64,000 bases of DNA from NCBI RefSeq assembly GCF_029960785.1, contig NZ_JASBQE010000019.1, positions 62,001-126,000 on the forward strand, read 5' to 3'. Source of the DNA: Polyangium sp. 15x6. Lineage in GTDB: Bacteria > Myxococcota_A > Polyangia > Polyangiales > Polyangiaceae. Made by a program: the position numbers and the translations under genes. Position 1 is the stretch's first letter. Every line of letters starts with the position of its first letter. Of this stretch, positions 7,319-51,424 are shown piece after piece. Under the pieces are notes generated by a model that saw only the letters and a list, made by a program, of their open reading frames with translations, did no database searches and was not told the origin of the DNA.

Positions 7319-8416
<1,098 letters not shown>

Positions 8417-8417
8417 C

Positions 8418-10439
8418 GTGGGCAAACGAATTCTGTCGAGCTTCCTTGAAATCGACGCCCGCTCCCTGGGGCTCTTTCGCATCGCGATGGCCCTCGTCCT
8501 TCTGGGCGACCTCTTTCGCCGCTGGCCGTGGGTGCGCGCGTTTTATTCGAACGAGGGCGTCCTCCCGAATCACAACCACATCTTCAACCTGCGCGACCAG
8601 GGCCAGGTCTGGAGCTTCCTCCACGCTTTTTCGAGCGTCGGGGAGAACCACTTCGCGTTCGTCCTGATCCTCCTCGTCTATCTCGGCTTTCTCCTCGGCT
8701 GGAAGACGCGCGTCTTCCACGCGCTGTCGCTGATCTGCCTGGTGAGCCTCGGCTCGCGGAACATCCTGCTCGAAAACCAGGGCAATTACGCGGCCGTCGC
8801 GCTCCTCTTCTTCACGCTCTTCCTGCCGCTCGGCAGCCGCTTCTCCGTCGACGCCCTCGCCCGCTCGTTTTCGGACCGCGACGAGAAGACCGACGCGGAT
8901 CTGAACGATCGCCCGCGGCCCACGAAGGCCGAGCTCTCGGCCACGCGCGGGCCCGGCTGGTCGCCCCTCTCGTTCGCGGCGCTCGCCGTCACGCTGCAGG
9001 TCGTGATCATCCTGATCGCGTCCGCGGCCTGGCATTTCGCGGGGGCGTGGCGCGACGGCAGCGGCCTTTATTACGCGCTCCACGTCGAGCGCTGGGTGAG
9101 CGATTTCGGGGTGCGGCTGCAGCACGCGCCGGCGGGCGTCTTGAAGGGCCTGTCGTATCTGCTCCTCGCGACCGAATGCGCCGTCCCGCTCCTCGTGCTC
9201 GTCCCCGTGGCGCGTCGGCCGCTCCGCGGCATCGCCGTCGCGCTCCTCGTCGTCTATTCGCTCACGCTCGGCCTCCTGTTCTCGCTCGGCCTTTATGCCT
9301 GGACGCTCCTCGCCGCTGCGGCGCTGCTCCTGCCGGAGGAGAGCTGGGACGCCTTCGAGCGCCGTCTCGCCCCGGCCCGCGCGCGCAGCGTCGTCTACGA
9401 CGAGGATTGCGGCGTTTGCTTGTGGCTCGCGCGTCTCGCCAAGCGCCTCGACGCCCAGCACCACCTCACGTTCCAGGGCAATGGCGACCTCTCGGGGCTC
9501 CTCCGCGGCAAGGCCGACGGCACGGTCGAAAAGGTCGATCTGCCGAAGGAGATCACCGAAGAGCTCGTGCAGAACACGATCGTCGTCGTGGACCCGAAGG
9601 GCACGGTCTTCACGCGGAGCCGCGGCATCGCGGAGATCGTGCGGGCCTTGCCGTTCGGGCGTCCTCTCGCGTTCGTCATGCGCCTGCCGGGCATCTCGAA
9701 CCTGCTCGACGTCTTCTACGACGCCTTCGCCAAGCGGCGCGCCAACGTCAGCGTGCTCCTCGGCATGGACGCATGCGGCGTCCCCGCGCCGAAGGACGAG
9801 GCCGAATCCGACGCCGTCGATCCCCTCGACGTCCCGTCCGCCGTACGCACCCAGCGTTTCTTGACGGGCGGCCTTCGCGAGGCATTCGTGTTCGTGCTCT
9901 TCGTCGCGGCGCTCGCGCAGGCGGCCAAGGCAAACCCGCTCCGGTTCACGATTCCCCAGGGAAAACTCCTCTCGGCGGCCGTCGCGTGGCCGCGCATGAT
10001 GGAGCGCTGGGACGTGCTCGCCGTGGACGGGACCGAGGACGGCGTCTTCGTGGTCGACGGCCAGAACCGCAAGGGCGCGAGCATCGACCCGCTCACGGGC
10101 GCCCCGCCCGCGGTCGACCCCGAGGCCTTCAACGCGCGCAAGCTCGGTCAGCTCTGGAACGATTACCTGAACCGCGTCCGGCAGCGCGAGTACGAGCCGT
10201 TCCAGAAGGCCCTGCGTGATTACCTCGGCAAGGGCGGCCCCGCGCTCGAAGGCCGCGCGCCGGACGAGCAGCTCTCGGGGTACGACGCGTACTGGGTGAA
10301 GTATTCGATCGCGCAGCCCGGCGAGAGCCCGGCGCGGGTCGAGAAGGGCCGCGACAAACTCTTCACGCATTCGCGCGGCGGGCGCATGGCGGTCGACCGG
10401 CTCCCGATCATCAAGCCCGACCTCCGCCGGCAGGAGTAG
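8418..10439 (+). CDS. HTTM-domain membrane protein fused to a DCC (DUF393) thiol-disulfide domain
   Basis: A 673-residue protein from GTG 8418, favoured over GTG 8403 because GAGGA sits 6-7 bases upstream. The first about 310 residues form an HTTM domain, the membrane region shared with vitamin K-dependent gamma-carboxylase: LGLFRIAMALVLLGD, YSNEGVLPNH, LLENQGNYAA, then several helices. A DCC-type domain follows (VVYDEDCGVC, Cys331 and Cys334), typical of DUF393 proteins. The C-terminal third is soluble and contains WPRMMERWDVLA. HTTM proteins in bacteria have no settled function. It is followed at 4 bases by a paralogue with the same layout. Confidence 0.85.
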   Translation: MGKRILSSFLEIDARSLGLFRIAMALVLLGDLFRRWPWVRAFYSNEGVLPNHNHIFNLRDQGQVWSFLHAFSSVGENHFAFVLILLVYLGFLLGWKTRVFHALSLICLVSLGSRNILLENQGNYAAVALLFFTLFLPLGSRFSVDALARSFSDRDEKTDADLNDRPRPTKAELSATRGPGWSPLSFAALAVTLQVVIILIASAAWHFAGAWRDGSGLYYALHVERWVSDFGVRLQHAPAGVLKGLSYLLLATECAVPLLVLVPVARRPLRGIAVALLVVYSLTLGLLFSLGLYAWTLLAAAALLLPEESWDAFERRLAPARARSVVYDEDCGVCLWLARLAKRLDAQHHLTFQGNGDLSGLLRGKADGTVEKVDLPKEITEELVQNTIVVVDPKGTVFTRSRGIAEIVRALPFGRPLAFVMRLPGISNLLDVFYDAFAKRRANVSVLLGMDACGVPAPKDEAESDAVDPLDVPSAVRTQRFLTGGLREAFVFVLFVAALAQAAKANPLRFTIPQGKLLSAAVAWPRMMERWDVLAVDGTEDGVFVVDGQNRKGASIDPLTGAPPAVDPEAFNARKLGQLWNDYLNRVRQREYEPFQKALRDYLGKGGPALEGRAPDEQLSGYDAYWVKYSIAQPGESPARVEKGRDKLFTHSRGGRMAVDRLPIIKPDLRRQE

Positions 10440-10443
10440 GGCC

Positions 10444-12462
10444 GTGGCCGAGATAGCCGCCGAGGGCGAGGTCACGGCCGAACGGCCGGCGGACGTGCCG
10501 CGAGAGGACAAACCCGCAAAACCGCGGTTTTCGCGCCTCCGCGCCGCGTTCGCCTGGCTGCGCGACCATTACATGACGATGGACCCGCGCACGCTCGGGT
10601 TTTTCCGGCTCGTCATCGGGTTCCTCGTCACCGCCGATTGCATCCGGCACTGGATGGAGGCGCGCTGGTTCTACTCGAACGACGGCATCCTCACGAACCA
10701 TTACCACCTCTTCCGTCCGAGCAGCGGCTTCAACTTCAGCATCTTCCACGCGTTCTCCTCCCTCGAAGAGGTCCACGTCGCCTTCGCGATCGCGACGTTC
10801 TGCCATTTTTGCTTCTTCATCGGCTGGCATACCCGCGTCTTTTCGGTCCTCTCGTTCCTCCTCGTGACGAGCCTGGACAACCGGCTCGTCATGGTCGAGA
10901 ACGGCGGGTACGTCGTGGAAAACCTGCTCGTCGGCTGGGCGATGTTCATGCCCACCGGCGAGCGGTTCTCCGTCGACGCGCTTTTACGCTCGTTCCGCGA
11001 GCGCAAGGAGCGTTCGTCCGCGGAGCTCAACGCGCGCGCGCCGTTCGCCTGGGCCACGAAGCCCTACGTCTCGCTGATCGGGCTCCTCACGACCCTGAAC
11101 ATCGCGGTCATTTATTATTTCAACGTCGTCAACAAATCGGGACATATCTGGCGCAAGGGCGACACGGTCCATTACGTGCTCCACCTCGATCGCATGATCA
11201 CGGGGTTCGCCGTGCCGTTTCGCGAGTACATGCCGCTCTGGATGATGCGGCCCGTCGCCTGGAGCGTGCTCGTCGTCGAGGCGCTCCTCGTGCCGCTCAT
11301 CCTCGCCCCCGCCGGCCGCCGCATCACGCGGCCGCTCGCGATGCTCCTGATGACCGGCCTGCACGGGACCTTCGGCGTGATGATGCGCCTCGGCCCGTTC
11401 TCCTGGTTCATGATCGCCTGGAGCTTCCTGTTTCCCCAGCCCGTGCACTGGGAGATCCTCGGCCGCTGGTACACGAAGAAGGCCCGCGCGTGGGTCGTCG
11501 TCTACGATAGGCGCTCGGCGCTCGCGTTTTTCCTCTGCCGCCTCTTCGCGCGCCTCGACCACTGCGAGCGCCTCACGTTCGAGGAGAGCCCCGAGGACGA
11601 AGCCACGCCGAAGCTCCTCCGCGTCCGCGATCCCGCGACGAACGAGGTCCACGACGATCACGCGGCCCTCGCGGCCGTCGCGCGCTCGCTGCCCGCGGGC
11701 CGTTTCCTCTGGCCCGTCTTCCGCGTCCTCACGCTGGGCCTCTCGGGGCCGCTCTTCGGCTACGTCGCGCGCCGTCGCGACGCCGTCGCCCGCGCCTTCG
11801 GCCTCGGCGGAAGGCCCCGCGGCCGCGAGGCGAGCGCCGTGCCTTCTCCGCTCGCCGCGCGCGCCTCGCGCGTGCGCGCAGGCCTGCGGGAGGCGCTCGT
11901 GGCCTGGTTCTTTCTCTGCGCGGTGAGCCAGACGATCAACGAGAACAAGTCCGTCCCTGCGCCCTTCAAGCACCAGCAGCCGTGGCTCATGCAGGCGACC
12001 CTCGGCTACCCGCGCATGTATCAGGGCTGGGGTATGTTCGCGCCGAACCCGATCAGCGACGACGGTTCGATCACGGTCGACGCGATCACGATCAGCGGCC
12101 GCCACGTCGATCCCTTCACTGGAGAGGAGCCCGACCTCAATCTCTCGGACGCGCGTGGTCTCGGTTTGAACCAGATCAGGCAGGACTACTTCAACCGTAT
12201 CCGGCTCGATCGGAACAAGGTGTTCCGTCATGGTCTCAAGGAGTACCTCCTGCGCTGGCACGAAGAGACCGGTCGCCCCGAGGATGAGCTCGCCGCGTTC
12301 GACGTGTACTGGCTGCGGGACCAGTGCCCGCTGCCTGGACAAACGCAGCCGTACAAGCATGAAAAGATTGCGATCCTGACATATCGCAAGCCTGGATACA
12401 GGCCACCGCCGGGCAATCCACCGCTTCCGCCCGAGCCCAAGGTCGAGAGCGCGGGCAACTGA
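10444..12462 (+). CDS. HTTM-domain membrane protein, paralogue with degenerate DCC region
   Basis: A 672-residue protein from GTG 10444, 4 bases after the previous stop, with AGGAG upstream. It matches the previous gene along its length: LGFFRLVIGFLVTAD, YSNDGILTNHYH, VENGGYVVENLL, and a C-terminal segment with YPRMYQGWGMFAPNP. At the place where the first copy has its Cys-x-x-Cys motif this copy reads VVVYDRRSALA, so the redox cysteines are lost. The C-terminus is proline-rich. The two genes look like a tandem duplication followed by loss of the redox site. Function unknown. It is the last gene before the PKS locus. Confidence 0.85.
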   Translation: MAEIAAEGEVTAERPADVPREDKPAKPRFSRLRAAFAWLRDHYMTMDPRTLGFFRLVIGFLVTADCIRHWMEARWFYSNDGILTNHYHLFRPSSGFNFSIFHAFSSLEEVHVAFAIATFCHFCFFIGWHTRVFSVLSFLLVTSLDNRLVMVENGGYVVENLLVGWAMFMPTGERFSVDALLRSFRERKERSSAELNARAPFAWATKPYVSLIGLLTTLNIAVIYYFNVVNKSGHIWRKGDTVHYVLHLDRMITGFAVPFREYMPLWMMRPVAWSVLVVEALLVPLILAPAGRRITRPLAMLLMTGLHGTFGVMMRLGPFSWFMIAWSFLFPQPVHWEILGRWYTKKARAWVVVYDRRSALAFFLCRLFARLDHCERLTFEESPEDEATPKLLRVRDPATNEVHDDHAALAAVARSLPAGRFLWPVFRVLTLGLSGPLFGYVARRRDAVARAFGLGGRPRGREASAVPSPLAARASRVRAGLREALVAWFFLCAVSQTINENKSVPAPFKHQQPWLMQATLGYPRMYQGWGMFAPNPISDDGSITVDAITISGRHVDPFTGEEPDLNLSDARGLGLNQIRQDYFNRIRLDRNKVFRHGLKEYLLRWHEETGRPEDELAAFDVYWLRDQCPLPGQTQPYKHEKIAILTYRKPGYRPPPGNPPLPPEPKVESAGN

Positions 12463-12956: not shown

Positions 12957-21139
<8,183 letters not shown>

Positions 21140-21143
<4 letters not shown>

Positions 21144-24100
21144 CCACCAGACGCCTCGATGCCCCGCCGGCCATGACGACGCAGCATGACGACGATGCCC
21201 CGCCGGCGTCGGGGCTCTCGTCGATGCAGCGCGCGATCATGACGATCCAGAAGATGCGCGCGAAGATCGAGAACCTCGAGCGCGCGCGCGTCGAGCCCAT
21301 TGCCATCATCGGCATGGGTTGTCGTTTTCCCGGGGGCGCGAACACGCCGGAGGCGTTTTTCGAGCTGCTGAAGGAGGGCGTGGACGCCATCACGGAGGTC
21401 CCGCCCGAGCGGTGGGGGCTCGCGCCCGAGCAATCGTCCGATCCGGAGGCGCGCGCGGTGCGCTGGGGCGCGTTCCTGCGCGACGTGGATCTCTTCGACG
21501 CCCGCTTTTTCGGCATCTCTCCGCGCGAGGCGTCGAAGATGGACCCACAGCAGAGGCTCCTGCTCGAGGTCACGTGGGAGGCCCTCGAACGCGCGGGCCA
21601 GGTGCCCGAGCGCCTCGTCGGCAGCCGCACCGGGGTTTTTCTCGGCATCATGAACAATGATTATGCCGAGCTCTCGGCGAGCGCTGGGCCCGAGCAGGAG
21701 GACGCGTACACGACGACAGGAAATGGCCATTCCTTTCCGTCGGGCAGGCTCTCGTATACGTTCGGATTTCAGGGTCCGAACATCGCCGTCGATACCGCGT
21801 GCTCCTCGTCGCTCGTCGCGATCCACCTCGCTTGCCATAGCTTGCGCAGCGGCGAATGCACGATGGCCGTCGCGGGCGGCGTCAACCTGATGCTGGCGCC
21901 CTCGACCACGCGCAAATACGCGAAGCTGCAGGCGCTTTCGCCTGACGGCCGCTGCAAGACGTTCGACGCGACGGCGAACGGGTTCGTCCGCGGCGAGGGC
22001 TGCGGGATGGTGGTGCTGAAGCGCCTCTCCGACGCCGAGCGAGACGGGGATTCGATCCTCGCGATCATTCGCGGATCGGCCGTCAACCAGGACGGCCGAT
22101 CCACGGGGCTCACCACGCCGAACGTGCTCGCGCAGCAAGCGATGCTGACGCAGGCGCTCGAGGCCTCGCGTTTGTCGCCGGCGGAGGTGGGGTATGTCGA
22201 GACGCACGGCACGGGGACCTCGCTCGGCGATCCGATCGAGGTCGACGCGCTCAAGGCGGTCCTGGGCGGGCCGCGGAGCGATGGGTCTGCGTGCGTGCTC
22301 GGGGCGCTCAAGACGAACATCGGGCACCTTGAATCGGCCGCCGGGGTGGCGGGCCTCATCAAGGCCGTGCTCGTGCTCCAGCAAGGGCTCATCCCGAGGA
22401 ACAACCATTTCCGGACGCTGAACCCTCGCATTCAGCTCGACCGCACGCCCTTCGTCATTCCCACGGAGGCGCGGCCCTGGCGGACGGCACTCAAGCGTCG
22501 GGTCGCCGGCGTGAGCTCGTTCGGGCTGAGCGGGACGAACGCGCACCTCATCGTCGAGGAGTGGGCGCAGAGCTCCGAGGAAGACCTGACACCCGAGGCC
22601 GCCGCGTATTTGTTGCCGCTCTCTGCGAAGAGCCCCGAGGCGCTCCGGGTGCTCGTGGCATCCTATCGTGATTACCTCGGGGCACCCTCGGGCGAGGCGC
22701 GGCTGCGCGATATCGTGTACACGGCGAGCCAGCGGCGTGGGCATTTCGAGGAGCGCCTCTCCGTCGTGGGCGGCGGGCGTGCCGAGCTCGTCCGCCACCT
22801 CGACGCGTTCCTTCGCGGATCGCTGCAACCCGGGAGCGCTGCCGGGAAATCGACGCCGGCGCGGGCGAAGGTCGTGTTCGTCTTCTCGGGGCAGGGCTCG
22901 CAGTGGCTCGGCATGGGCCGGAAGCTCTACGAGGAAGAATCGTCGTTTCGCTCGGTCATCGATTCGTGCGACGCCCTCCTCACGGGCAGGCTCGGGTGGA
23001 GCATCCTCGACGAGCTCGACTCGACGGAGTCGATGTCACGCCTCTCCGAGACGCAGGTGGCGCAGCCGCTCATCTTTTCGCTCCAGATCGCGCTCGTGGA
23101 GCTCTTGCGCTCGTGGGGCATCACGCCCGACGCCGTGATCGGGCACGGCGTGGGCGAGATCGCCGCGGCTTACATCGCAGGCATCCTGTCGCTCGACGAG
23201 GCGATCCGGCTCGTCGCCATTCGCGGGCGGATCATGCAAAAAGCTGGCGGCGGCGCAAAGATGGTGGCCGTCGCGGCGCCCCTCGACGTCGCGCGCGAGG
23301 CGATCGCCGGGTACGAGGATCGGCTGATGGTGGGCGCCGTGAACGACCACGAGTCCGTCGTGCTCGCGGGGCAGCCGCCCGCCATGGACGAGGTCGTCGC
23401 GAAGCTCGAACGGCAGGGCATCGCCTGCCAAGCCCTGCCCGCGACGTACTCGTTTCAGGGCCCGCACATGCAGCCCGCCGCGCAAGACCTCGTCGAGCGC
23501 CTCGTGCGGGTCGACGCGCGGCGGGCGACCCTCGCGATGTACAGCACGGTCCTCGCCGAGTGCGTGGAAGGCAAGGAGCTCGACGTTCGGTACTGGGGGC
23601 GGAACATACGAGAGACCGTGAAGTTCGCGGGCGCCGTGGGCGCGGCGATTCACGATGGGTATCAGCTCTTCCTGGAGGTCGGGCCGCACCCGATGCTCGT
23701 CGATCACCTGCGGCAATGCCTCGCCGCGAAGGGCGTCGAGAATGGCCTCGCGGTCGCTTCGCTGCAGCGGGATCGGCTCGATCGCTGGGCGTTGCTCGCG
23801 GCCACGGGGGCGCTCTACACGCGAGGTTGCGCGGTGGAGTGGTCGCGACTCGTGCCGCCCGGTGGGCGATGCGTGGCCTTGCCGACGTACCCGTGGACCC
23901 GGGAGCGATACTGGGTCGATCCGCCGAAGCCCGCGGCCGTGAAGGCCGGCGCGGGCGCGCGTCGCGTCCCGGCCCTCGCGCGGCGTCGACCGCGGGTGGT
24001 CTTCGTGTTTCCGGGGCAGGGCTCGCAATGGCTCGGCATGGGGAGGCAGCTCCTCGCCGAGGAGGAGGAGTTTCGTTCGTCGCTCAAAACGATCGACCAG

Positions 24101-27100
24101 GCGATCCAGCGGGAGGGCCATTTCTCGGTGCTGGAGGAGCTCGCCGCGCCGGAGGGGCAATCGCGGCTCGGGGAGATCGACGTCATCCAGCCTGTCCTCT
24201 TCGCGATCGAGGTCGCGCTCGCGGCGCTGTGGCGGTCGTGGGGCGTGGAGCCCGACGCGGTGATTGGCCATAGCATGGGGGAAGTCGCGGCGGCGCACAT
24301 GGCGGGCAAGCTCGACCTGGCCGACGCGGCGAAGGTGATCTGCCAGCGGAGCCGGTTGCTCCGGGGCATTCGTGGCCAAGGTGCGATGGCGCTCGTCGAG
24401 CTCGACATGGCCGGGGCGCGGCAGGCGCTCGCGGGGTACGAGGATCGCCTCGGCGTGGCCGTGAGCAATGGGCCCCGCTCCACGGTGCTCTCGGGCGACC
24501 CCGCTGCGCTGGAGGATGTGCTCCAGGTCCTGGAGAAGCAGGGCGTTTTCTGCAGGCGGGTCAAGGTGGACGTGGCTTCGCATAGCCCGCAGGTGGAGCC
24601 GTTGCGGGAGGAGCTCCTGAAGGTGCTCGCCGGCCTCTCGCCGCGGGAGGGCGGGGTGACCATGATCTCCACGGTCACCGGCGAGCCTATCCATGGGCCC
24701 GAGCTCGCGTCCGGGTACTGGTGGAACAACCTGCGTGAACCCGTGCGGTTTTCGCAGGTCGTGCAGTCCCTGCTGCGCGAGGGGTATGGGCTGTTCATCG
24801 AAATGAGCCCTCACCCGATTCTGCTCCCGTCCATCGAAGAGAACCTGAAAGACACGGGGCTCGAAGGCGTCGCTGTCGCCTCTTTGCGGCGGCAATCGGA
24901 GGAGCGCCGGTGCTTGCTCGAATCGCTCGCCAAGGTCGAAGCGCAGGGCTATCCGACGGCGCGTATTCTCGGCGCGGCCGCGCGCGAGGACCAGGAGCAA
25001 CCCGGAGCGGGGGCGCACCATCCCTTGCTCGGTCGACGTGTCGAGACGTCGGCGCTGCAAGACGGAATGCTCTGGCAGGTCGAATTGAGCCTGGACAATC
25101 TCCCCTGGATCGCCGACCACCGGGTCGGTGGGCAGGTCCTTCTCCCCGGCTCCGTGTACATCGAGGCTGCTCTCGCGGCGGCGTGTGAATGCATCGGGCA
25201 AGGACCGGTGGTCCTCGAAGATGTCGCGCTCGTCAGCCCGATCGTCGTCCGGGAAGGGGAAAGCGTCCTCGTGGAGGTCATGCTCACGCAGGCGGAGGGG
25301 GACGCGTGGTCGTTCAAGCTATCGAGTCGCGTCCGGCGGGAGGATGCGCCCTCCCGCACCTCCACGTGGTCGCTGCACGCCACGGCGCGCGTTCGTGCCG
25401 AGACCGAGCCGCGGCGCGCGAAGGGCGAGCCGGTGGCCGAGATGGTGGCGCATTGCCCCGAGAACGTCTCCCTCGCCGACGTCGAGCGGAACGAGCGTCG
25501 GCAGGGACTCGATATCGGCCCGGCATTTCGGGCGATCGCGGAGCTCCGGCGCGGCGGCGCGGGGGTCGTCGCGCGCTTGCGCCTCCCCGAGGAGGCGTCG
25601 GAGCATCCTGCCTATCTCGTGCATCCCGTCCTCCTGGATGCGGCATTGCGAGCGACGCTCGCGGCGCGCGCGAACGAGGAGGCGGCCGAGACCCGCGTGC
25701 TCGCGCATGTGCGCCAGATTCGTTTCCACGAGGTTGTCGGGAGCGCTGCATGGGTCCGCGCGCATGGCGGTGGGGAAACGTCGGTCGCGCTCGTGGACGC
25801 GGCCGGGCGCGTCTTGCTCGAGGTCGACGGCATCACGACGCAAGCATTGCAGGCCCCCGCCGTCACGGGACAGGATCCGCTCGCCCATCTCCTCCTCGTG
25901 CAGCGATGGCAGGAGGCGGAGCTGCCCGTCCCGCGCGGGAGAGACATTGCTGCAGGGCGGTGGCTGATTCTCTGCGACGATCGGGGCATCGGAGCGTCCC
26001 TGCGAGAGATGCTCCAGGCGCGTGGCGGGGACGTGCGGTGCGCATATCTGCGGGCGCCGGGGGTCGAGCCGTGCGCCGATCGTCTCGAAATCGATTCTTC
26101 GAATCTCGACGGCGTCGCCGCGCTCGTGCGGGAATCGTTCCGTTCCGGCGAGCGACCGCGAGGGATCGTGTATCTATGGGGGCTCGATCCCGAGCCGCGG
26201 GCGCTCTCCATCGAGGCGCTCGACGACGCGATCGTGCGAGGATGCGGAGGCACCCTGGAAGTGGTGCAGGCGCTTGGGCGCATGACCATGCGGGACAACC
26301 CCCGCCTTTGGCTGGTCGTGCGCGGCAGCCAGGCGGTCGAGCAAGAGCCGCGTGAGGTCCGGGTCGAGCAAGCGCCGCTCTGGGGTCTCGGCAGGACGAT
26401 CGCCATGGAGGCGCCCGAGCTGCGGTGCACGCGCGTCGACCTCGACCCTGCGGCCAGCGACGCGACGAGCGTCGAAGCGATCCTCGGCGAGGTGCTGGCC
26501 GACGACGTCGAGGAGGAGATCGCGCGGCGCGGCCGCCATCGTTTCGTGGCCCGGCTCGGCAGGCCGCGGGAGGCCGCTGCGCCCGCGGGATCGATCGCCT
26601 TGCGAGCGGATGCGACCTACCTCATCACGGGTGGTCTCGGCGGTGTCGGGCTTTTCGCGGCTCGGAACCTCGCCACGGCAGGCGCGCGCCACCTCGTGCT
26701 GATGGGCCGGCGGGGCGCGAGCTCGCCCGAGCAGCTCGAAGCGCTCGAGGGGCTTCGTTCGATGGGCGTCGAGGTCGAGGTCGAGGTCGCCGACGTCGCC
26801 GACCCGCAGCAACTCGAGGCCGCGCTGCGTGCAATCGAAACGAAGATGCCTCCGCTGCGCGGGATTCTCCATACGGCCGGCGTGCTGGAAGATGGGCTTC
26901 TCCCCACGCAAACGCTGGAGAGGTTCCGCAAGGTCCTCGCGCCGAAGGTGATGGGCGGCTGGAACCTCCACCGGCAGACGCTCGGCCGGGAGCTCGATTT
27001 CGTTCTCTTCTATTCGTCCGTGGCTGCATTGCTGGGCTCGCCGGGGCTCGGCAATTATGTCGCGGCGAACGCTTTCCTCGAAACGCTGGCGCACCACCGG

Positions 27101-27837
27101 AGCCGCCTCGGCCTCGTGGGGACCAGCATCGATTGGGGCTTGTTCTCCGGCAGGGGCATGGCCGTCAAGGCGGACACCATCGGCGGCGTCTCGCAGCGCG
27201 GAATTCGAGGGTTCACGGAGGCCGAGGCCGAAGCGCTCCTCCAGCGCGCATTGCGCGGGGAGTGGGTGCAGATGGGGTGCGTCGCGATCGACTTCCGACA
27301 ATGGATCGAGAGCCACCCCCAGGTCGCCTCCTCGCCGCGGTTTTCGGCCGTCCTGGAGGCCACCCGCACGGCCTCCGAAGGCGGCGCGCGGAGCCACGCG
27401 CGTGTGTGGCTGGAGTCCGTCGCGCATGCTCCGCCGAAGGACCGCGTGGAGATGGTCGAGGCGCTCATTCGGAAGCAGCTCGCCCACGTCCTCCGGATGG
27501 ATCCCGAGCGGATCGACCGGCTCCAGCCGCTCCGCGCGCTCGGGATCGATTCCTTGATGAGCCTCGAGCTTCGCAATCGACTCGAGGCGGCCCTCGGCAT
27601 TCAGCTCTCGGCCACGCTCGTGTATGCCTACCCGAACCTGGCTGCCCTGGGGGAGCACGTCCTGAAGAGCCTCGCGCCCCTGCTGCCGCACGAGGCGAAA
27701 GCCGAGCCAGCTCCGGAAGTGCTGAAGTACACGGCCGAGCCGGTGATCGAATCGCCGCCGCCCGCGGGCGACCTGGAGGACGATCTGCTCTCGTCGTTCG
27801 ACGAATCGATGCGCCGCCTCAAGAGGAAAGGTCGTTC

Positions 27838-27841
<4 letters not shown>
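21140..27841 (+). CDS. PKS2: module 2 (KS-inactive AT-AT-DH-KR-ACP)
   Basis: A 2233-residue PKS from a GTG that overlaps the PKS1 stop by 4 bases. Docking coiled coil 1-50; KS about 52-475 (DTACSSS, Cys221; HGTGT; NIGHLESAAG). First AT about 580-880: the nucleophile motif reads GHGVGE (Gly670 instead of Ser) and the histidine motif reads YSFQGPHM (Gln773 instead of His), so it cannot transfer acyl groups. Second AT about 955-1250: GHSMGE (Ser1045) and VASH (His1148), methylmalonyl type and intact. DH (His1327, Asp1500); KR from about 1825 (TGGLGGVG; LED in place of LDD, so probably B-type; catalytic YSS and GNY present); no ER; ACP Ser2138; basic C-terminal tail. Predicted result: an alpha-methyl, alpha-beta double bond. 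Confidence 0.95.
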
Positions 27842-45476: not shown

Positions 45477-45509
45477 CGATCGCTCGGCCCGCCTCAGGCC
45501 GGGCGATCG
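45477..45509. terminator. Strong bidirectional hairpin between convergent PKS4 and PKS5
   Basis: Arms CGATCGCTCGGCC (45477-45489) and GGCCGGGCGATCG (45497-45509) pair over 13 positions with a single G-U wobble; the loop is CGCCTCA. It lies 7 bases after the PKS4 stop, and its loop includes the PKS5 stop codon, so it can act on transcripts from both sides. No T-run is present. It is the strongest hairpin noticed in the window. Confidence 0.6.
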
Positions 45510-48500
45510 GAGCCATCGACCTCGCGGAGCACACCGCGGAGCGCTTCGGCGAGGTGCGCGACCGCGGGCACGAAAATCACGTTGATGTGATCGCCGGGGA
45601 GATCGATCACCCGCACGGGACGGCTGCAGAGCGATTGCCAGCCGAAGGTCGTGTCGCCCGGGGAGAAGCCAGCCATCGGCAAACGCCGCGCGCTCTCCTC
45701 CGTTCGAAGCAGCGTGACGGGGACCGCGGAGATCGAAGGGGCATAGCTGGTCAGGGCATGAAGGTGCGCGCGATAGACGCGCAATTGCCGCTGGCTCTCG
45801 CTCACATCGGTCGGCAGCATCAACTTCTCGCTCATGGCAGCGGCCATTTGCGTGAGCTGGTCCTCGTGCGATAGCTTGGTGAATACCGGCTCGTCGATGG
45901 GCAGATCGAAGAGCCGCCCCAGGCTCAGGAGCGAGAGTTGCCCCGTCCCGCCAGGGCCCGGCGCCGGGACGTCACCCAGCACGAGGGCGTCGATCCGCTC
46001 GCCTGCGTCGGTGAGCAGCCGAGCCATCTCGAAGGCTACGAGCGAGCCGAACGAATATCCTCCCAGGCGGTACGGTCCGTGGGGCTGGGCTTGTCGCATG
46101 GCCTCGACGAACCGCGCCGCCAGGACCTCGATCCGGTCGCACGGCGGCGCATCCGTGTCGATCCCCGGCGCGTTGAAGCCATAGAGGGGTCGATCGGCGC
46201 CGAAGTGCTGCGCCAGCGATTGAAACGCGAGCGCCGAGCCCGTGAGCGGAGGCGCGAGGAAGAAGGGGGGATTCGCTCCCTCCCGATTGAGCTCGACGAG
46301 CAGCCCCCGCCGGCTGAGCGGCCCCGCGGCGGCATCGTCGTGGCCCGAACGCAGGGTGCCGAGGACGCGGCGCGAGAGACCCTCGACCGTCGGGTGCGCG
46401 AGCAGGACCCGCACGGGCAAATTCACCCCGAACGCGGACCCGATTCCGCTCAGCACCTGAACCCCCATGATCGAATTCATGCCGAGCACGGACAGATCTT
46501 GATCGTTCGCCGGCAGGTCCGCCGGGCTCACGCCGAGCACGTGCGCGATTTCGCCACGCACGGCGCTCTCGACGATCCGGCGCGCCTGGTCGGGCTCTGC
46601 GGCCGCGACGCGTCGCTTCAACGTGGCGGCGCCCGAGGTCACGCTCCGCGGGTCCCCGAGCCCTTCGAGCAGGGCGCGGCCCATGCGCGCAGGATGCGAT
46701 TGTTCGAAGAGGCCCCACTCCACCCACGCGACCATCGCCACGGGGAGTCCGCTCGCCGCCATCCGCTCGGCCGCCTGCAATGCGAGGGAGGGAGGCATTC
46801 CCTGGAGGCCGGAGGCGAGCTGGGAGAGCTCGTGCTCGGTGCGGCTCGACCGACCCTCGTTCGGGAGCGCGAGGTGAATGACCGTCGCGGGCAAACCCTC
46901 GGCGCGACGGAGCCGCGCGAGCGTGTCGGCGAAATCGGCGGACACGGCATCGGCGCCGAGCACCTCCCAGCCGAGAAATGGCGAAGCCGAGGAGAAAACG
47001 AGGAAGAAATCGAGCGGCAGGGAGGCCGTGAGCGTATGCAGGGAGAGGAGGGCGAGCGAGCTTTGTCGGTAGTGCGAATGCAGCACGGCCTTCGCGTCCC
47101 GGCTCGTGAGCCGATGCAATGCAGTGTCCGTCGCGGCCGTCGCATGGATGACGCCGCCGAGGGGGAGCCGTGCACGCGAGAGGGCCTGGCGGACAGCGCC
47201 TTCGTCGGCGAGATCCACTTCGTCGGCCGCGATTGCGATCCCTCGGGTCGCGAGCGCCCGCGCGGTGCGCTCCCGCGCCTCGCGTTCCTCGTTGTCACGG
47301 GGCGGGGCGTCGAGGAGGAGCAAGCTCTGGGCCCCGCGATCGATGAGAAAGTCCGTCGCCTCGGCGCCGAGCGGGTCGTGCGCGCCCGTGACGACGTAGG
47401 TTCGATCCGGACGAACCTGGACGGATTGCGGCGCGGGCATGGGGATACGGGCGAGACGGCCGACGTAGCGTTTGCCGCCCCGAAGCGCGACGTGATCCTC
47501 GACCCCCATGGTCGAGAGCGCCTGCGCGAGTCGCAGGCCGTCTTCCTCGCCGGGCTGCGGGTCGAGGTCGATCAGCCCGCCCCACATGTCCGGCCGCTCG
47601 ATCGACAGAACACGGCCGAGGCCCCAGGATCCGGCCTGCGCGACGGCGGGGCTCCCGTTCTCGACGACCTGGGCTCCACGCGTCACGATCCACAAGCGCG
47701 GCACGTGCGCCTGCGCGGCGACACGATCGACGATTGCGAGCACGGCGGAGGGCCCTTTTTGCAGGGCATCTTCGAGCATCGCCGGGGACGTCGGGACGCC
47801 GGAGGCCACGTCGAGCGACCCGAGGTGCACGATGCCGAAGAAGGGCCCCGAGAAGCCGAGTACGAGGTCCAATCGATCGATCCGTTGCTCGAGGTCCGCG
47901 GCCGGCAGCACGATCACCGTGTCGCCCGCGGCTTCGAGGTGCGCGGCGAGGGCGCGACCCACCCCGCCGGCATCGGCGAGGACGATCCACCGCCGCTTCG
48001 CCGCAGGGCTCGCGATGGCCGGCGGTGTTTCCCGCCAAACCAGGTCGATGAACGCGTCCTGCAGCGGATCCTTGCCCGCGGCGCGCAGCGCGGTGGCCGG
48101 ATCCTCGGCGCGAAGGACGATTTTCCGCGCCGCGGCCGCGACCTCTCTGTCCTCGCCCACGAGCTCGACGCTCACCCGCCCGGACAAACCGTCGTTGGCG
48201 CTCCAGTTGAGGCGGAGCCAGAACCGCCGCTCCGTCGACGCGGGCCGCACGCTGGCGCCTTCGATCGATTCGATCATCCACGAGCGGCCGTGCGTCGCCG
48301 GGTGGGTGATCGACGCGACCGCGGGCACGGCCCGCAGGAACGCCATCGCCGCCGCGGGATTCTCGAGCCGCACGCGCGCCAGCGTCTCGGCGTCCCTTTG
48401 CCATACCTGATCGATATGGAACGTGTCCATGTCGACGCCGAACGCCTCGAGCCGCCGCTCCCACAAGAGCGTGGACACGCCCTGGCGGCGTCCGGGGCGC

Positions 48501-51424
48501 ATGCTCGGCGGGGCGATGTCCTCGTCCTCGTCCGGTACGAGCGCAGGCACGATGGCGCCATGCGCGATTCGCTTCCAGGGAGCGCTGCTCCGCTCCCGGA
48601 AGAAGATGCCGAGGGATGCTTTTCGGTCGCCCTCCGGCGTGGCGATCACCTGCATCCTGCCCGTCTCTTGCGGGTGCAGCGCGGGCGGGTCGCCGAGGGA
48701 GAGGCCGATCTCCCAGCCTGCCGCCCCGAAGGTCTCGCGCGCCGCGGCGCAAGCGACCTCGACGAGCCCGCCCGTCGAGAGCCGCGACACCCCGGCGAGC
48801 CGCCGTGTGCCGACGCTGCGCAGGCTCGATTCGTCGAGGTCGAGCTGCCACGTGCGGACATCGGGCCGATCCGCGCGGGGATCGAGCACGTGGCCGAGGA
48901 GCGGGTGTCCATCGCCCGCGGCGCGCTCCGGGGAGATCCGGGTCGTCGTGCCAACCCAGTACCGTTGCCGCTGAAATGGATAGGTCGGCAGCGTGATACG
49001 CCGGTAAGGATGGGGCGCATCGACGCCCTCGAAATGCAGGTCCACGCCACGCACGTAGAGCGCCGCGAGCGCCTCCAGGAGCACCCGGATGGGCGGAGCG
49101 TCGAGACGCAACGAAGGGACGATCGGCATGGCCGCGTCCGGTGGCGTCCGGCGCCCCTCGTTTCCTGGACCGGGGCCCATCTCGAGGAAAGCCACGAACC
49201 CCTGGGACGCGAGCTTGCCGATCGCTTGTCTCGAATCGACCGCCTCGCGGACCTGGCGTTCCCAGTAGGCCCTCGTGCCGAGCGAGGTCGCGGAGAACGC
49301 GTCCCCGAGGCTCGGGATCAAGGTGCGCCGCGGGCTCGACAGCTTGATCTTCGCGATGGCGCGGGCGAGGGGCTCGATGTCGCGCCCGTCGCTGCACGCG
49401 AGCCGCGCGCGCGCCTCGGCGAGTACGAGGGCGTCTTCGAGCCCGAGCGCGCCCGAGGCCCACGCGGCGACGCATTCGCCGGTCCCCTCGCCGGTCACGG
49501 CCGCGCATTCGACGCCCCACGAGCGCCACAGCTCGACGAGGGCAACTTGCAGGACGAACAACGCGAGCTCCGCCTCCACGACGTCCTCCGTCGGGCGCGC
49601 ATTCGCGTCGTCCTGGAGGAGCCCGAGAACGCGCCGCCCGAGCTGCGCCTGCACGGCATCGTCCGCGCGATGCAGGGCCGCCCGGAGCGCGGGCGGCGTG
49701 GCGTCGAGCGGCCCGAGCGCGCCCCGCGCCTGGGTCGCGCGCCCCATCAATACGAAGCCGATCCGCTTGCGGGCGGAGACATTGTCGACGCGGGCATGTA
49801 CGTGCGTGCCCGGCGCGCCGTCGAGGTAATCGGAGAGCTGCGCCAGAACCTCGGCGTGCGTGGTGACCACGGCGGCGAAGCGATGTTCGAGGTGTGCCCG
49901 ACCCACGCCGAGGGTATGGCACGTGTCTCCGAGGGATTGCTCGGGACGCGCGGCGACGTGCCGGAGCATCTGCTTGACCTGGTCACGCAGAGCCTCGGCC
50001 GTCTTGGCCGAGAGGACGAAGAGGTGCGCGGGGCGCTCGGGTTTGTCCTGGGCGCGGGGCCCCTCCGGCGGCTCTTCGAGGACGATGTGCGCATTGGCGC
50101 CGCTGAGCCCCGTCGCGCTGACGCCGGCGAACCGCGGACGATCCCCTCGCTTCCAGGGGATCTCGGATACCGGAATGACGAACGCGTCGCGGTCGAGCGA
50201 AGCGTTCGTATTCAGCGATTCGAAATGGAGGTTGCGCGGGATCGTCTCGTGGTGCAGCACGAGGGCGGCCTTGATGAGCGAGGCCATGCCCGAGGCGGCC
50301 TCGGCGTGGCCGATGTAGGTCTTGACCGAGCCGAGCACGCAGCGCGATCCCTCGGCGCGCCCTGGCCCGAGCACTTCCTGGAGCGCTTCGAGCTCGATGG
50401 GATCGCCGAGCGGCGAGCCATTGCTGTGGACTTCGACGTACCCCACGCGCTCGGGCTTCACGCGCGCGTCTTCGAGCGCGGCGCGGAGGACGGCCGTCTG
50501 CGCCTGGAGATTCGGCGCCGTCAGGCTCGTCGCGCGGCCATTCTGGTTCATGGCCGTGCCGCGGACGAGCGCCCATATCCGGTCGGCGCTGCGCTGCGCG
50601 TCGGAGAGCCGCTCGAGAATGACGACGCCGACGCCCTCGGCCCGCACGTAGCCATTGGCGCGTGCGTCGAACGTACGACATCGCCCGTCGGGGGAGAGGA
50701 CCTGGAGCGAGGCGAGGATGTTCGTCGTATCCGGCGAGAGGAGGAGGTTCACGCCCCCGACGATCGCCATGTCGCATTCCCCGCGACGCAGGCTCCGGCT
50801 GGCCAGGTGCAATGCGACGAGGGACGAGGAGCAAGCGGTATCGACGACGGTGCACGGGCCCCGTAAACCGAGCGCGTAGGCAATTCGTCCCGCGGCGAAC
50901 GAGATTGCATTGCCGGTGGGCACGTGCGGCCGCGGCTCGGGCGCCGTCGCGCGCAGCAGCGCCACATAGTCCGGCGACCCGATGCCCACGAAAACGCCGA
51001 CCTTGCCGTCGGCGATCCGGTCGGGCCTCACGCCCGCGTCCTCGAGCGCCTCCCAGGTCACTTCGAGCAGCAGGCGATGCTGGGGGTCCATGTCCGTGGC
51101 TTCGCCGCGGCCGATCCCGAAGAACCCGGCGTCGAATTGCTCGACGTCGTCGAGCAGACCCGCCCACCGGGCAGACGGATGCGGCGTGCCCACGGTGCTC
51201 GACCATCGCTCGGCCGGGACCTCCGTGACGGCGTCGGTCCCCGCGTGGAGCAGCTGCCAGAGCGCGGCGGGGCTCTTTGCGCCGCCGGGGAATCGGCATG
51301 CCATCCCGACGATCGCCAGCGGCTCCGTCTTGGCTCGCTCCGCCGCCGCGAGCTTCGTCTCCATCTTTTCGAGCGCGAGCAGGGCGCGTTCGAGCGTGGA
51401 CCCTCCAGGTTGCCGCGTCGTCAC
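45494..51424 (-). CDS. PKS5: decayed terminal module with intact thioesterase (KS-AT remnant-DH remnant-KR remnant-ACP-TE)
   Basis: A 1976-residue protein on the minus strand from a GTG at 51424. The N-terminal docking helix (LERALLALEKM) resembles those of PKS2 and PKS4. KS: DTACSSS with Cys198, His333 in an altered motif (VEVHSNGSPLGDP for HGTGT), His373 (YIGHAEA). AT: GEGTGE for GHSxGE (Glu646, Gly647), GQGSQ also lost, and the segment holding the YAFH histidine is missing, so inactive. DH: the His and Pro of HxxxGxxxxP and the Asp of HPxxLDA are gone. KR: TGAHDPLG replaces the nucleotide loop and the catalytic Tyr is lost. ACP: GMNSI, with Ser1651 kept and Asp changed to Asn. TE: GYSFGS with Ser1791, Asp1818, His1946 intact. 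It probably receives the chain and releases it without adding a unit; alternatively it is a decaying gene, although the frame is fully open. Confidence 0.92.
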   Translation of the reverse strand: MTTRQPGGSTLERALLALEKMETKLAAAERAKTEPLAIVGMACRFPGGAKSPAALWQLLHAGTDAVTEVPAERWSSTVGTPHPSARWAGLLDDVEQFDAGFFGIGRGEATDMDPQHRLLLEVTWEALEDAGVRPDRIADGKVGVFVGIGSPDYVALLRATAPEPRPHVPTGNAISFAAGRIAYALGLRGPCTVVDTACSSSLVALHLASRSLRRGECDMAIVGGVNLLLSPDTTNILASLQVLSPDGRCRTFDARANGYVRAEGVGVVILERLSDAQRSADRIWALVRGTAMNQNGRATSLTAPNLQAQTAVLRAALEDARVKPERVGYVEVHSNGSPLGDPIELEALQEVLGPGRAEGSRCVLGSVKTYIGHAEAASGMASLIKAALVLHHETIPRNLHFESLNTNASLDRDAFVIPVSEIPWKRGDRPRFAGVSATGLSGANAHIVLEEPPEGPRAQDKPERPAHLFVLSAKTAEALRDQVKQMLRHVAARPEQSLGDTCHTLGVGRAHLEHRFAAVVTTHAEVLAQLSDYLDGAPGTHVHARVDNVSARKRIGFVLMGRATQARGALGPLDATPPALRAALHRADDAVQAQLGRRVLGLLQDDANARPTEDVVEAELALFVLQVALVELWRSWGVECAAVTGEGTGECVAAWASGALGLEDALVLAEARARLACSDGRDIEPLARAIAKIKLSSPRRTLIPSLGDAFSATSLGTRAYWERQVREAVDSRQAIGKLASQGFVAFLEMGPGPGNEGRRTPPDAAMPIVPSLRLDAPPIRVLLEALAALYVRGVDLHFEGVDAPHPYRRITLPTYPFQRQRYWVGTTTRISPERAAGDGHPLLGHVLDPRADRPDVRTWQLDLDESSLRSVGTRRLAGVSRLSTGGLVEVACAAARETFGAAGWEIGLSLGDPPALHPQETGRMQVIATPEGDRKASLGIFFRERSSAPWKRIAHGAIVPALVPDEDEDIAPPSMRPGRRQGVSTLLWERRLEAFGVDMDTFHIDQVWQRDAETLARVRLENPAAAMAFLRAVPAVASITHPATHGRSWMIESIEGASVRPASTERRFWLRLNWSANDGLSGRVSVELVGEDREVAAAARKIVLRAEDPATALRAAGKDPLQDAFIDLVWRETPPAIASPAAKRRWIVLADAGGVGRALAAHLEAAGDTVIVLPAADLEQRIDRLDLVLGFSGPFFGIVHLGSLDVASGVPTSPAMLEDALQKGPSAVLAIVDRVAAQAHVPRLWIVTRGAQVVENGSPAVAQAGSWGLGRVLSIERPDMWGGLIDLDPQPGEEDGLRLAQALSTMGVEDHVALRGGKRYVGRLARIPMPAPQSVQVRPDRTYVVTGAHDPLGAEATDFLIDRGAQSLLLLDAPPRDNEEREARERTARALATRGIAIAADEVDLADEGAVRQALSRARLPLGGVIHATAATDTALHRLTSRDAKAVLHSHYRQSSLALLSLHTLTASLPLDFFLVFSSASPFLGWEVLGADAVSADFADTLARLRRAEGLPATVIHLALPNEGRSSRTEHELSQLASGLQGMPPSLALQAAERMAASGLPVAMVAWVEWGLFEQSHPARMGRALLEGLGDPRSVTSGAATLKRRVAAAEPDQARRIVESAVRGEIAHVLGVSPADLPANDQDLSVLGMNSIMGVQVLSGIGSAFGVNLPVRVLLAHPTVEGLSRRVLGTLRSGHDDAAAGPLSRRGLLVELNREGANPPFFLAPPLTGSALAFQSLAQHFGADRPLYGFNAPGIDTDAPPCDRIEVLAARFVEAMRQAQPHGPYRLGGYSFGSLVAFEMARLLTDAGERIDALVLGDVPAPGPGGTGQLSLLSLGRLFDLPIDEPVFTKLSHEDQLTQMAAAMSEKLMLPTDVSESQRQLRVYRAHLHALTSYAPSISAVPVTLLRTEESARRLPMAGFSPGDTTFGWQSLCSRPVRVIDLPGDHINVIFVPAVAHLAEALRGVLREVDGSDRPA

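Follow-up and report, generated by a model that had tools for sequence, protein, structure and literature searches.

A probable pseudo-acyltransferase retained ahead of a second acyltransferase core in an extension module of a Polyangium polyketide synthase

Organization of module 2

The window analyzed here is the whole 64,000-nucleotide stretch of contig NZ_JASBQE010000019.1 (positions 62,001 to 126,000, forward strand) of Polyangium sp. 15x6, whose genome amounts to 13.4 Mb in 275 contigs. It contains a modular polyketide synthase (PKS) cluster, in which the gene PKS2 encodes module 2. This module carries two adjacent acyltransferase (AT) domains, AT2a and AT2b, in one chain with a ketosynthase (KS), a dehydratase (DH), a ketoreductase (KR), and an acyl carrier protein (ACP). 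AT2a, which is enclosed by a KS-AT linker (KAL) and a post-AT linker (PAL), has lost both catalytic residues, while AT2b is a bare core with intact motifs. The features of PKS2, in window coordinates, are as follows.

21140..27841, + strand: PKS2 gene, 2233 residues, module 2 as KS-AT2a (pseudo-AT)-AT2b-DH-KR-ACP (open reading frame and Pfam)
21293..22411, + strand: KS (Pfam residues 52-424), active-site motif DTACSSSL
22412..22867, + strand: KAL, belonging to AT2a (Pfam KAsynt_C_assoc, CurL-like_PKS_C, and RhiE-like_linker between KS and AT)
22868..23836, + strand: AT2a, pseudo-AT, with Gly670 (codon 23147-23149) and Gln773 (codon 23456-23458), from motifs and the ratio of nonsynonymous to synonymous rates (dN/dS)
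23837..23914, + strand: PAL of AT2a, ending in PTYPWTRERYW (sequence)
23915..23992, + strand: linker of 26 residues from the PAL to AT2b, homologous and of equal length in a second species (G001, see below), of low confidence and probably flexible in the structural model
23993..24928, + strand: AT2b, bare AT core of methylmalonyl type lacking both a KAL and a PAL (GHSMGE, CQRSRLL, VASH; Pfam and tree)
24929..25018, + strand: short linker where a post-AT linker would be, leading to the DH (HPLLG)
25019..25864, + strand: DH, HxxxGxxxxP present
26612..27145, + strand: KR (Pfam 1825-2002)
27464..27661, + strand: ACP (Pfam 2109-2174), LGIDSL

In AT2a, the nucleophilic Ser is replaced by Gly670 (GHGVGE, residues 668-673, 23141-23158), and Gln773 stands in place of the catalytic His (YSFQGPHM at 770, compared with YAFHSPQM). 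The carboxylate-binding Arg of the RGRIM motif (RGRIMQ at 695) and the GQG motif are retained. Because neither the Ser nor the His is present, AT2a should be unable to form an acyl-enzyme, and we infer that it is catalytically inactive. A sequencing error as the cause of the two losses can be discarded, because the independent genome G001 carries the same two substitutions. Both ATs cover the Pfam family Acyl_transf_1 (length 319) nearly fully (1-311 and 1-309), and the AT fold of AT2a is also recovered in the predicted structure and by Foldseek.

The PAL of AT2a ends at residues 915-925 (23882-23914) and is followed by the 26-residue linker and AT2b, whose motifs GHSMGE (1043), CQRSRLL (1068), and VASHSPQ (1145) are all intact. 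Its VASH motif and its place in a methylmalonyl clade of the tree discussed below (98/98) class it as a methylmalonyl-CoA AT. AT2b has no KAL in front and no YPW-type PAL behind. The signature of a PAL running into an AT occurs once in the window, compared with a mean of 0.00 over 100 shuffles. A preliminary description of the window had reported the two losses beside a retained RGRIM and the VASH-type AT lacking a YPW linker after a normal PAL; all of this is confirmed, and the second AT is found to lack the KAL as well. The motif type of the module has changed from malonyl-like (YAFH) to methylmalonyl-like (VASH).

The catalytic motifs of KS (DTACSSSL), AT (GHSMGE and VASH), and ACP (LGIDSL) lie in one chain, as in a cis-AT extension module. 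The arrangement of one AT per module with a KAL before it and a PAL after it is not found, as there are two ATs and both linkers are those of AT2a. PKS2 also lacks the marks of a loading module: no ACP precedes the KS (one does in PKS1, the loading protein of the cluster), and the first AT is no catalytic starter AT, having neither Ser nor His, a malonyl-type Arg, and a position outside the starter clade. The second motif of the DH (about residues 1294-1575) is DAALR, with an Arg at the position where Gln or His is usual, which makes dehydration in module 2 uncertain.

Descent of the two acyltransferases and selection on AT2a

A search for the two-AT stretch in 59 genomes gives matches at E<=1e-120 in eight of them, six of which are the genome of the window and five others of the same genus (G001-G005); all six carry a homologous cluster. 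The layouts of the relatives were derived by blastp with the PKS1 domains at E 1e-8, a search that a very divergent domain could escape. At this threshold, module 2 is KS-AT-KR-ACP in G002, G003, and G005, where no DH is detected, and KS-AT-DH-KR-ACP in G004, with no enoylreductase (ER) in any of the four. Their single module-2 ATs all have GHSVGE and NYAFHSPQM. In G001, module 2 consists of KS, two ATs, DH, ER, KR, and ACP, and its first AT shows GHGVGE and TYTYQGPHM. The tandem occurs in two of the six genomes (window and G001), with the same two catalytic losses and with AT2a full length and in an open reading frame in both. A module-2 tandem with an intact first AT, which the preliminary description had named, if it performed a known reaction, as a finding that would speak against it, is seen in none of the six.

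Of 377 genomes drawn from the phylum, two contain the pattern of YW, about 17-37 residues, and FxGQGxQW, namely, those of the window and G001; the loci of G002 and G003, which lie outside this draw, were examined separately and show no match. A scan of the genome collection for a PAL followed by an AT, which may not include the genome of the window and its close neighbours and which overlooks other YW codons and linkers outside about 17-37 residues, yields 63 stretches, and in none of them does blastp with an AT query detect an AT within up to 500 residues upstream. In 60 of these, the YW hexamer and the AT are in different reading frames, the three in-frame ones show no upstream AT, and a KS lies upstream in 52, as in an ordinary KS-linker-AT arrangement.

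In an IQ-TREE phylogeny of 39 ATs (excluding 12 ATs of contig C55, which carries a second cluster, and three truncated terminal ATs), the two pseudo-ATs are sisters (100/100), and the live AT2 of G002 is next to them (96/93). AT2a falls within the clade of module-2 ATs (100/99), which is nested in the malonyl-type clade (100/99) together with the YAFH ATs and lies away from the starter ATs, in agreement with the malonyl-type kinship proposed in the preliminary description. Since four relatives have a single intact malonyl-type AT at this place and AT2a nests among the live AT2 domains, AT2a is the original malonyl-type AT of module 2, and the tandem state is derived.

The two tandem modules are alike to very different degrees along their length. 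The pseudo-ATs are 86% identical to each other, whereas the two AT2b are only 64% identical. At the nucleotide level, the identity between the window and G001 is 0.78-0.93 from residue 576 to about 905, that is, over the core of AT2a, compared with 0.59-0.72 in the KAL and 0.49-0.81 after the core, the value of 0.81 corresponding to the conserved start of AT2b. In both species, the tether measures 26 residues, and its nucleotide identity is 0.63, against a mean of 0.37 for codon shuffles (0 of 10000 reach it), and the junction between PAL and AT2b therefore looks like one event. As a separate observation on G001 PKS2 (L022, 68-2668), its KS and KAL are 93% and 73% identical to those of G005, compared with 70% and 58% to those of the window. 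The next domain, the AT, has its closest counterpart in the window, so that a sharp boundary of recombination lies where the AT core begins.

The relationship of the species was taken from gyrA alone, in which the two tandem species are 91% identical. The species of the window groups with G004 (97/98), a grouping of the window with G001 is rejected (p=0.0016), and G001 is the outlier of the genus. A tandem simply inherited along the species tree is contradicted by this result. We attribute the conflict to the block of the pseudo-AT, which probably moved horizontally between lineages or else reflects old recombination.

To evaluate selection, a codon model was fitted to six sequences of AT2 over 322 codons. 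The dN/dS ratio (omega) comes to 0.104 for the live branches and 0.107 for the two tips of the pseudo-AT pair, with 0.201 for the stem of that pair; these values are rough because synonymous distances are large (over 1 on several branches). Fixing the tips at omega=1 is rejected (twice the log-likelihood difference, 2dlnL, 141), and the stem shows a mild relaxation relative to the rest (2dlnL 4.3). In a control on four genomes (G003 was excluded as too divergent), the truncated AT and the degenerate KR of the terminal PKS have omega values of 0.257 and 0.328, compared with 0.146 and 0.137 for the KS and the thioesterase (TE) of the same proteins. AT2a has lost its catalytic residues but has not been released from purifying selection, and the contrast with the truncated AT is clear. 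Recent pseudogene decay of AT2a is rejected on the same grounds: its omega equals that of the live ATs, neutrality is excluded, and the control domains lie higher.

Among the 228 positions that are invariant in the four live ATs, 19 are changed alike in both pseudo-ATs. Six of these changes lie in the segment LRVNYAFHSPQM, which contains the His, at 12 invariant positions, compared with 13 at 216 invariant positions elsewhere (Fisher p=0.0001). This concentration of the stem changes in one loop, together with the full-strength constraint and the retained Arg and GQG motif, would suit an AT2a that has gained a non-acyltransferase role, i.e., one that binds the ACP or malonyl through the Arg and GQG and gates or guides the ACP of module 2, with the remodelled loop TY(S/T)(F/Y)QGPHM as its working part. 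We regard such a gain of role as unlikely, because the loss of catalysis alone also predicts changes at the Ser, the His, and the adjoining specificity loop, because positions 771 and 772 of the loop differ between the two species, and because we know of no function for an AT variant with a loop remodelled in this way.

AT2b shares its larger clade (98/98) with the second AT of PKS1 (ATb), which is also of the VASH type. The preliminary description had called the two very similar and had proposed that a duplicate of the methylmalonyl AT in PKS1 had been inserted and had taken over, while the old AT decayed but was kept as structure. This view would also be in line with the segments of G001 AT2b that are closest to PKS1 ATb, with the FastTree placement of that domain on the PKS1 side, and with the mildly relaxed stem. 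However, the AT2b of the window lies inside the methylmalonyl ATs of downstream modules of the relatives (97/93), and forcing it into one clade with the six PKS1 ATb domains costs 36 log units and is rejected by the approximately unbiased (AU) test (p=0.0002). Its identity to PKS1 ATb is 61%, compared with 64-70% to extension-module methylmalonyl ATs of the relatives, so that the likeness had been overstated. As to the old AT, its retention stands, but its decay does not, in view of the selection results and of the full-length, open AT2a in both species. The idea of an insertion is partly right, but it was not of an AT only, as the part behind the linker also holds the DH (DH and ER in G001). 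Nor was the change caught recently, the tandem being common to two species that differ in their AT2b and reductive parts. Taken as a whole, the insertion of a PKS1 copy beside a decaying relic is improbable.

A single, unchanged ancestry of the two AT2b domains is likewise rejected, since placing them in one clade costs 16 log units (AU p=0.009). The DH and KR domains of module 2 in the window and G001 are not close relatives (FastTree and window comparison), and the ER and KR of G001 fall, at modest support, among those of downstream modules that are fully reducing (FastTree and window comparison).

The segment KAL-AT2a-PAL-AT2b (867 residues) was modelled with AlphaFold2 from an alignment of 20 sequences. 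The mean predicted local distance difference test score (pLDDT) is 81.9, and the two AT cores are mostly above 80, whereas residues 923-947 between them are under 50, which suggests that the tether is probably flexible. The relative placement of AT2a and AT2b is not to be trusted because the predicted template-modelling score (pTM) is 0.57. Foldseek returns KS-AT didomains and AT domains of PKSs, including the AT of salinomycin module 8 with a target TM score of 0.92. That AT2b is not the loader, the ACP of module 2 being charged by another AT of the line with AT2b vestigial or structural, or the module being skipped, might find some backing in the missing flanking linkers of AT2b and in the truncated AT of the terminal module in all five aligned genomes, which implies dependence on another AT if that module elongates, but is very unlikely in view of the intact catalytic motifs of AT2b in both species, its confidently predicted fold, and the KS, KR, and ACP motifs present in module 2.

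Proposed role of the pseudo-acyltransferase and relation to known systems

We consider it probable that AT2a is a pseudo-AT kept as a scaffold and that the tethered, bare AT2b loads methylmalonyl. AT2a would remain as the structural middle of the KS-KAL-AT-PAL core, holding the ketosynthase module together, whereas AT2b, on the flexible 26-residue tether behind the PAL, would charge the ACP of module 2. The junction may have arisen once, by the joining of a segment that starts with an AT core behind the PAL of module 2, the likeliest donor being the AT-DH-ER-KR-ACP half of a downstream methylmalonyl module. Catalysis by AT2a would then have been redundant and been lost, and recombination in one or both lineages would later have exchanged AT2b together with the reductive part. 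For the product, this predicts that the module-2 position bears a methyl branch, which the products of the single-AT relatives would lack.

Several points weigh against this assignment. An AT core that stands bare, with neither a KAL nor a PAL to itself, is unusual and possibly of weak activity, and AT2a keeps the GQG motif and the carboxylate-binding Arg, which is more than pure scaffolding demands. The long branches that make the omega values rough belong here as well, as does the Arg in the second motif of the window's DH. The AT2b of G001 is in places most like PKS1 ATb, and FastTree puts it nearest to that side (0.825), a position that is unresolved in IQ-TREE. Finally, the donor scenario draws in part on weakly supported DH, ER, and KR trees and leaves the missing PAL of AT2b in both species unexplained.

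In the engineering of polyketide synthases, exchanging an AT often impairs the enzyme, as the linkers on either side and the KS contacts are disturbed. PKS2 appears to be a natural solution, in which the native KS-AT core is left whole, its AT is silenced, and a second AT is tethered behind it. It suggests a natural route by which one building block can be changed while the assembly line stays intact, and that an AT domain can be selectively kept for something besides acyl transfer. The homologous single-AT modules of the four relatives offer an ancestor-like comparison, which makes the idea directly testable. More tentatively, and with the odds somewhat against it, the pseudo-AT, PAL, and 26-residue tether could form a natural socket, that is, a selected non-catalytic adaptor for AT cores and reductive segments of different ancestry that differ by species; extender type and reduction level would be exchangeable with the KS-AT core untouched, and the pseudo-AT block itself seems to have moved between species.

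The KAL and a PAL of 30 residues enclose the AT and touch the KS (PMC11907408), the PAL being wrapped around the KAL as well (PMC11907408, PMC10423236). Chimeras in which the KS-contacting part of the PAL is foreign show hardly any activity (PMC10423236). Two adjacent ATs in one cis-AT protein, as in PKS2, are known from the tandem-AT loading modules of stigmatellin, soraphen, myxothiazol, and myxalamid and from JomP1 of jomthonic acid, which is ACP-KS-AT1-AT2-KR-ACP and in which one of the two ATs might be inactive according to its authors (PMC6117699). Proteins of that kind are loading proteins, their AT1 has been conjectured to accept an unusual starter, and the suspect AT of JomP1 is the second (PMC6117699). 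PKS2, in contrast, is an extension module without an N-terminal ACP, in which the first AT, with KAL and PAL, has lost its catalytic residues and the second is bare.

The irumamycin PKS provides a natural cis-AT with the same Ser-to-Gly replacement retained in its module, AT12, which is taken to be inactive (PMC11672594). It differs from PKS2 in that no second AT is mentioned for the module and loading is proposed to come from AT11 of the neighbouring module (PMC11672594). Another AT supplying the extender where the AT activity of a module is missing, as proposed for PKS2, is also found in auroramycin with AT6, AT9, or AT10 inactivated by Ser-to-Ala, where product is formed with the Dszs AT in trans, in one of the three cases at under 5% yield (PMC6943886), and in AT-null DEBS (PMC6164871). 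These complementations are engineered and act in trans, while that of PKS2 would be natural and covalently tethered in cis. Modules of trans-AT PKSs keep the KAL without a fused AT, so that the surroundings of a missing AT are retained as in PKS2, but they keep no whole pseudo-AT and have no AT in the same chain (PMC11907408). Taken singly, tandem ATs, inactive ATs, and the complementation of an AT all have precedents, whereas an extension module in which a pseudo-AT under selection precedes a live AT that is bare was not found in the open-access literature searched, including, in its available portion, a paper on 72 Sorangium genomes (PMC12800573).

Surroundings of PKS2 in the cluster

Modules 3-5 are encoded by PKS3 and PKS4, and two further proteins of the cluster bear on the comparisons made above.

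12957..21143, + strand: PKS1, loading module, ACP-KS-ATa-ATb-DH-ER-KR-ACP, of the known myxobacterial tandem-AT loading type
45494-51424, - strand: terminal PKS with KS, truncated AT, degenerate KR, ACP, and TE (KS and TE motifs present)

The layout of PKS1 is identical in all six genomes with the homologous cluster. Its ATa has HQATLVQ and no carboxylate-binding Arg, while its ATb has a VASH motif and linkers of its own. A starter AT is expected to be without this Arg, and the PKS1 starter is therefore probably not a dicarboxylic acid. By its domain order, PKS1 matches the known tandem-AT loading proteins of the soraphen and stigmatellin kind (PMC6117699). A second PKS cluster of the same genome (L036, contig C55, 62001-72500) also begins with an ACP-KS-AT-AT-DH-ER-KR-ACP protein. 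Upstream of PKS1, at 8403-12462 (+ strand), lie two genes with a DCC1-like thiol-disulfide oxidoreductase domain and an HTTM domain.

The AT of the terminal PKS (228 residues in the window) misses the His segment and has GEGTGE in place of GHSxGE. A truncated terminal AT is also found in G001, G002, G003, and G005, the lengths being 214-228 residues and the identities between genomes 29-60%. Because of this truncation, the terminal module must rely on another AT if it elongates. In the G004 gene G4_P5 (L030), the terminal-type KR groups with the KRs of the minus-strand PKSs, although the protein is on the plus strand, and its AT has intact GHSMGE and VASH. Lastly, the ATs of modules 3 and 4 of G002 (L025, genes G2_P3 and G2_P4) are near-identical, with branch lengths of 0 and 0.006 in the tree, which points to the recent copying of an AT within a single cluster.

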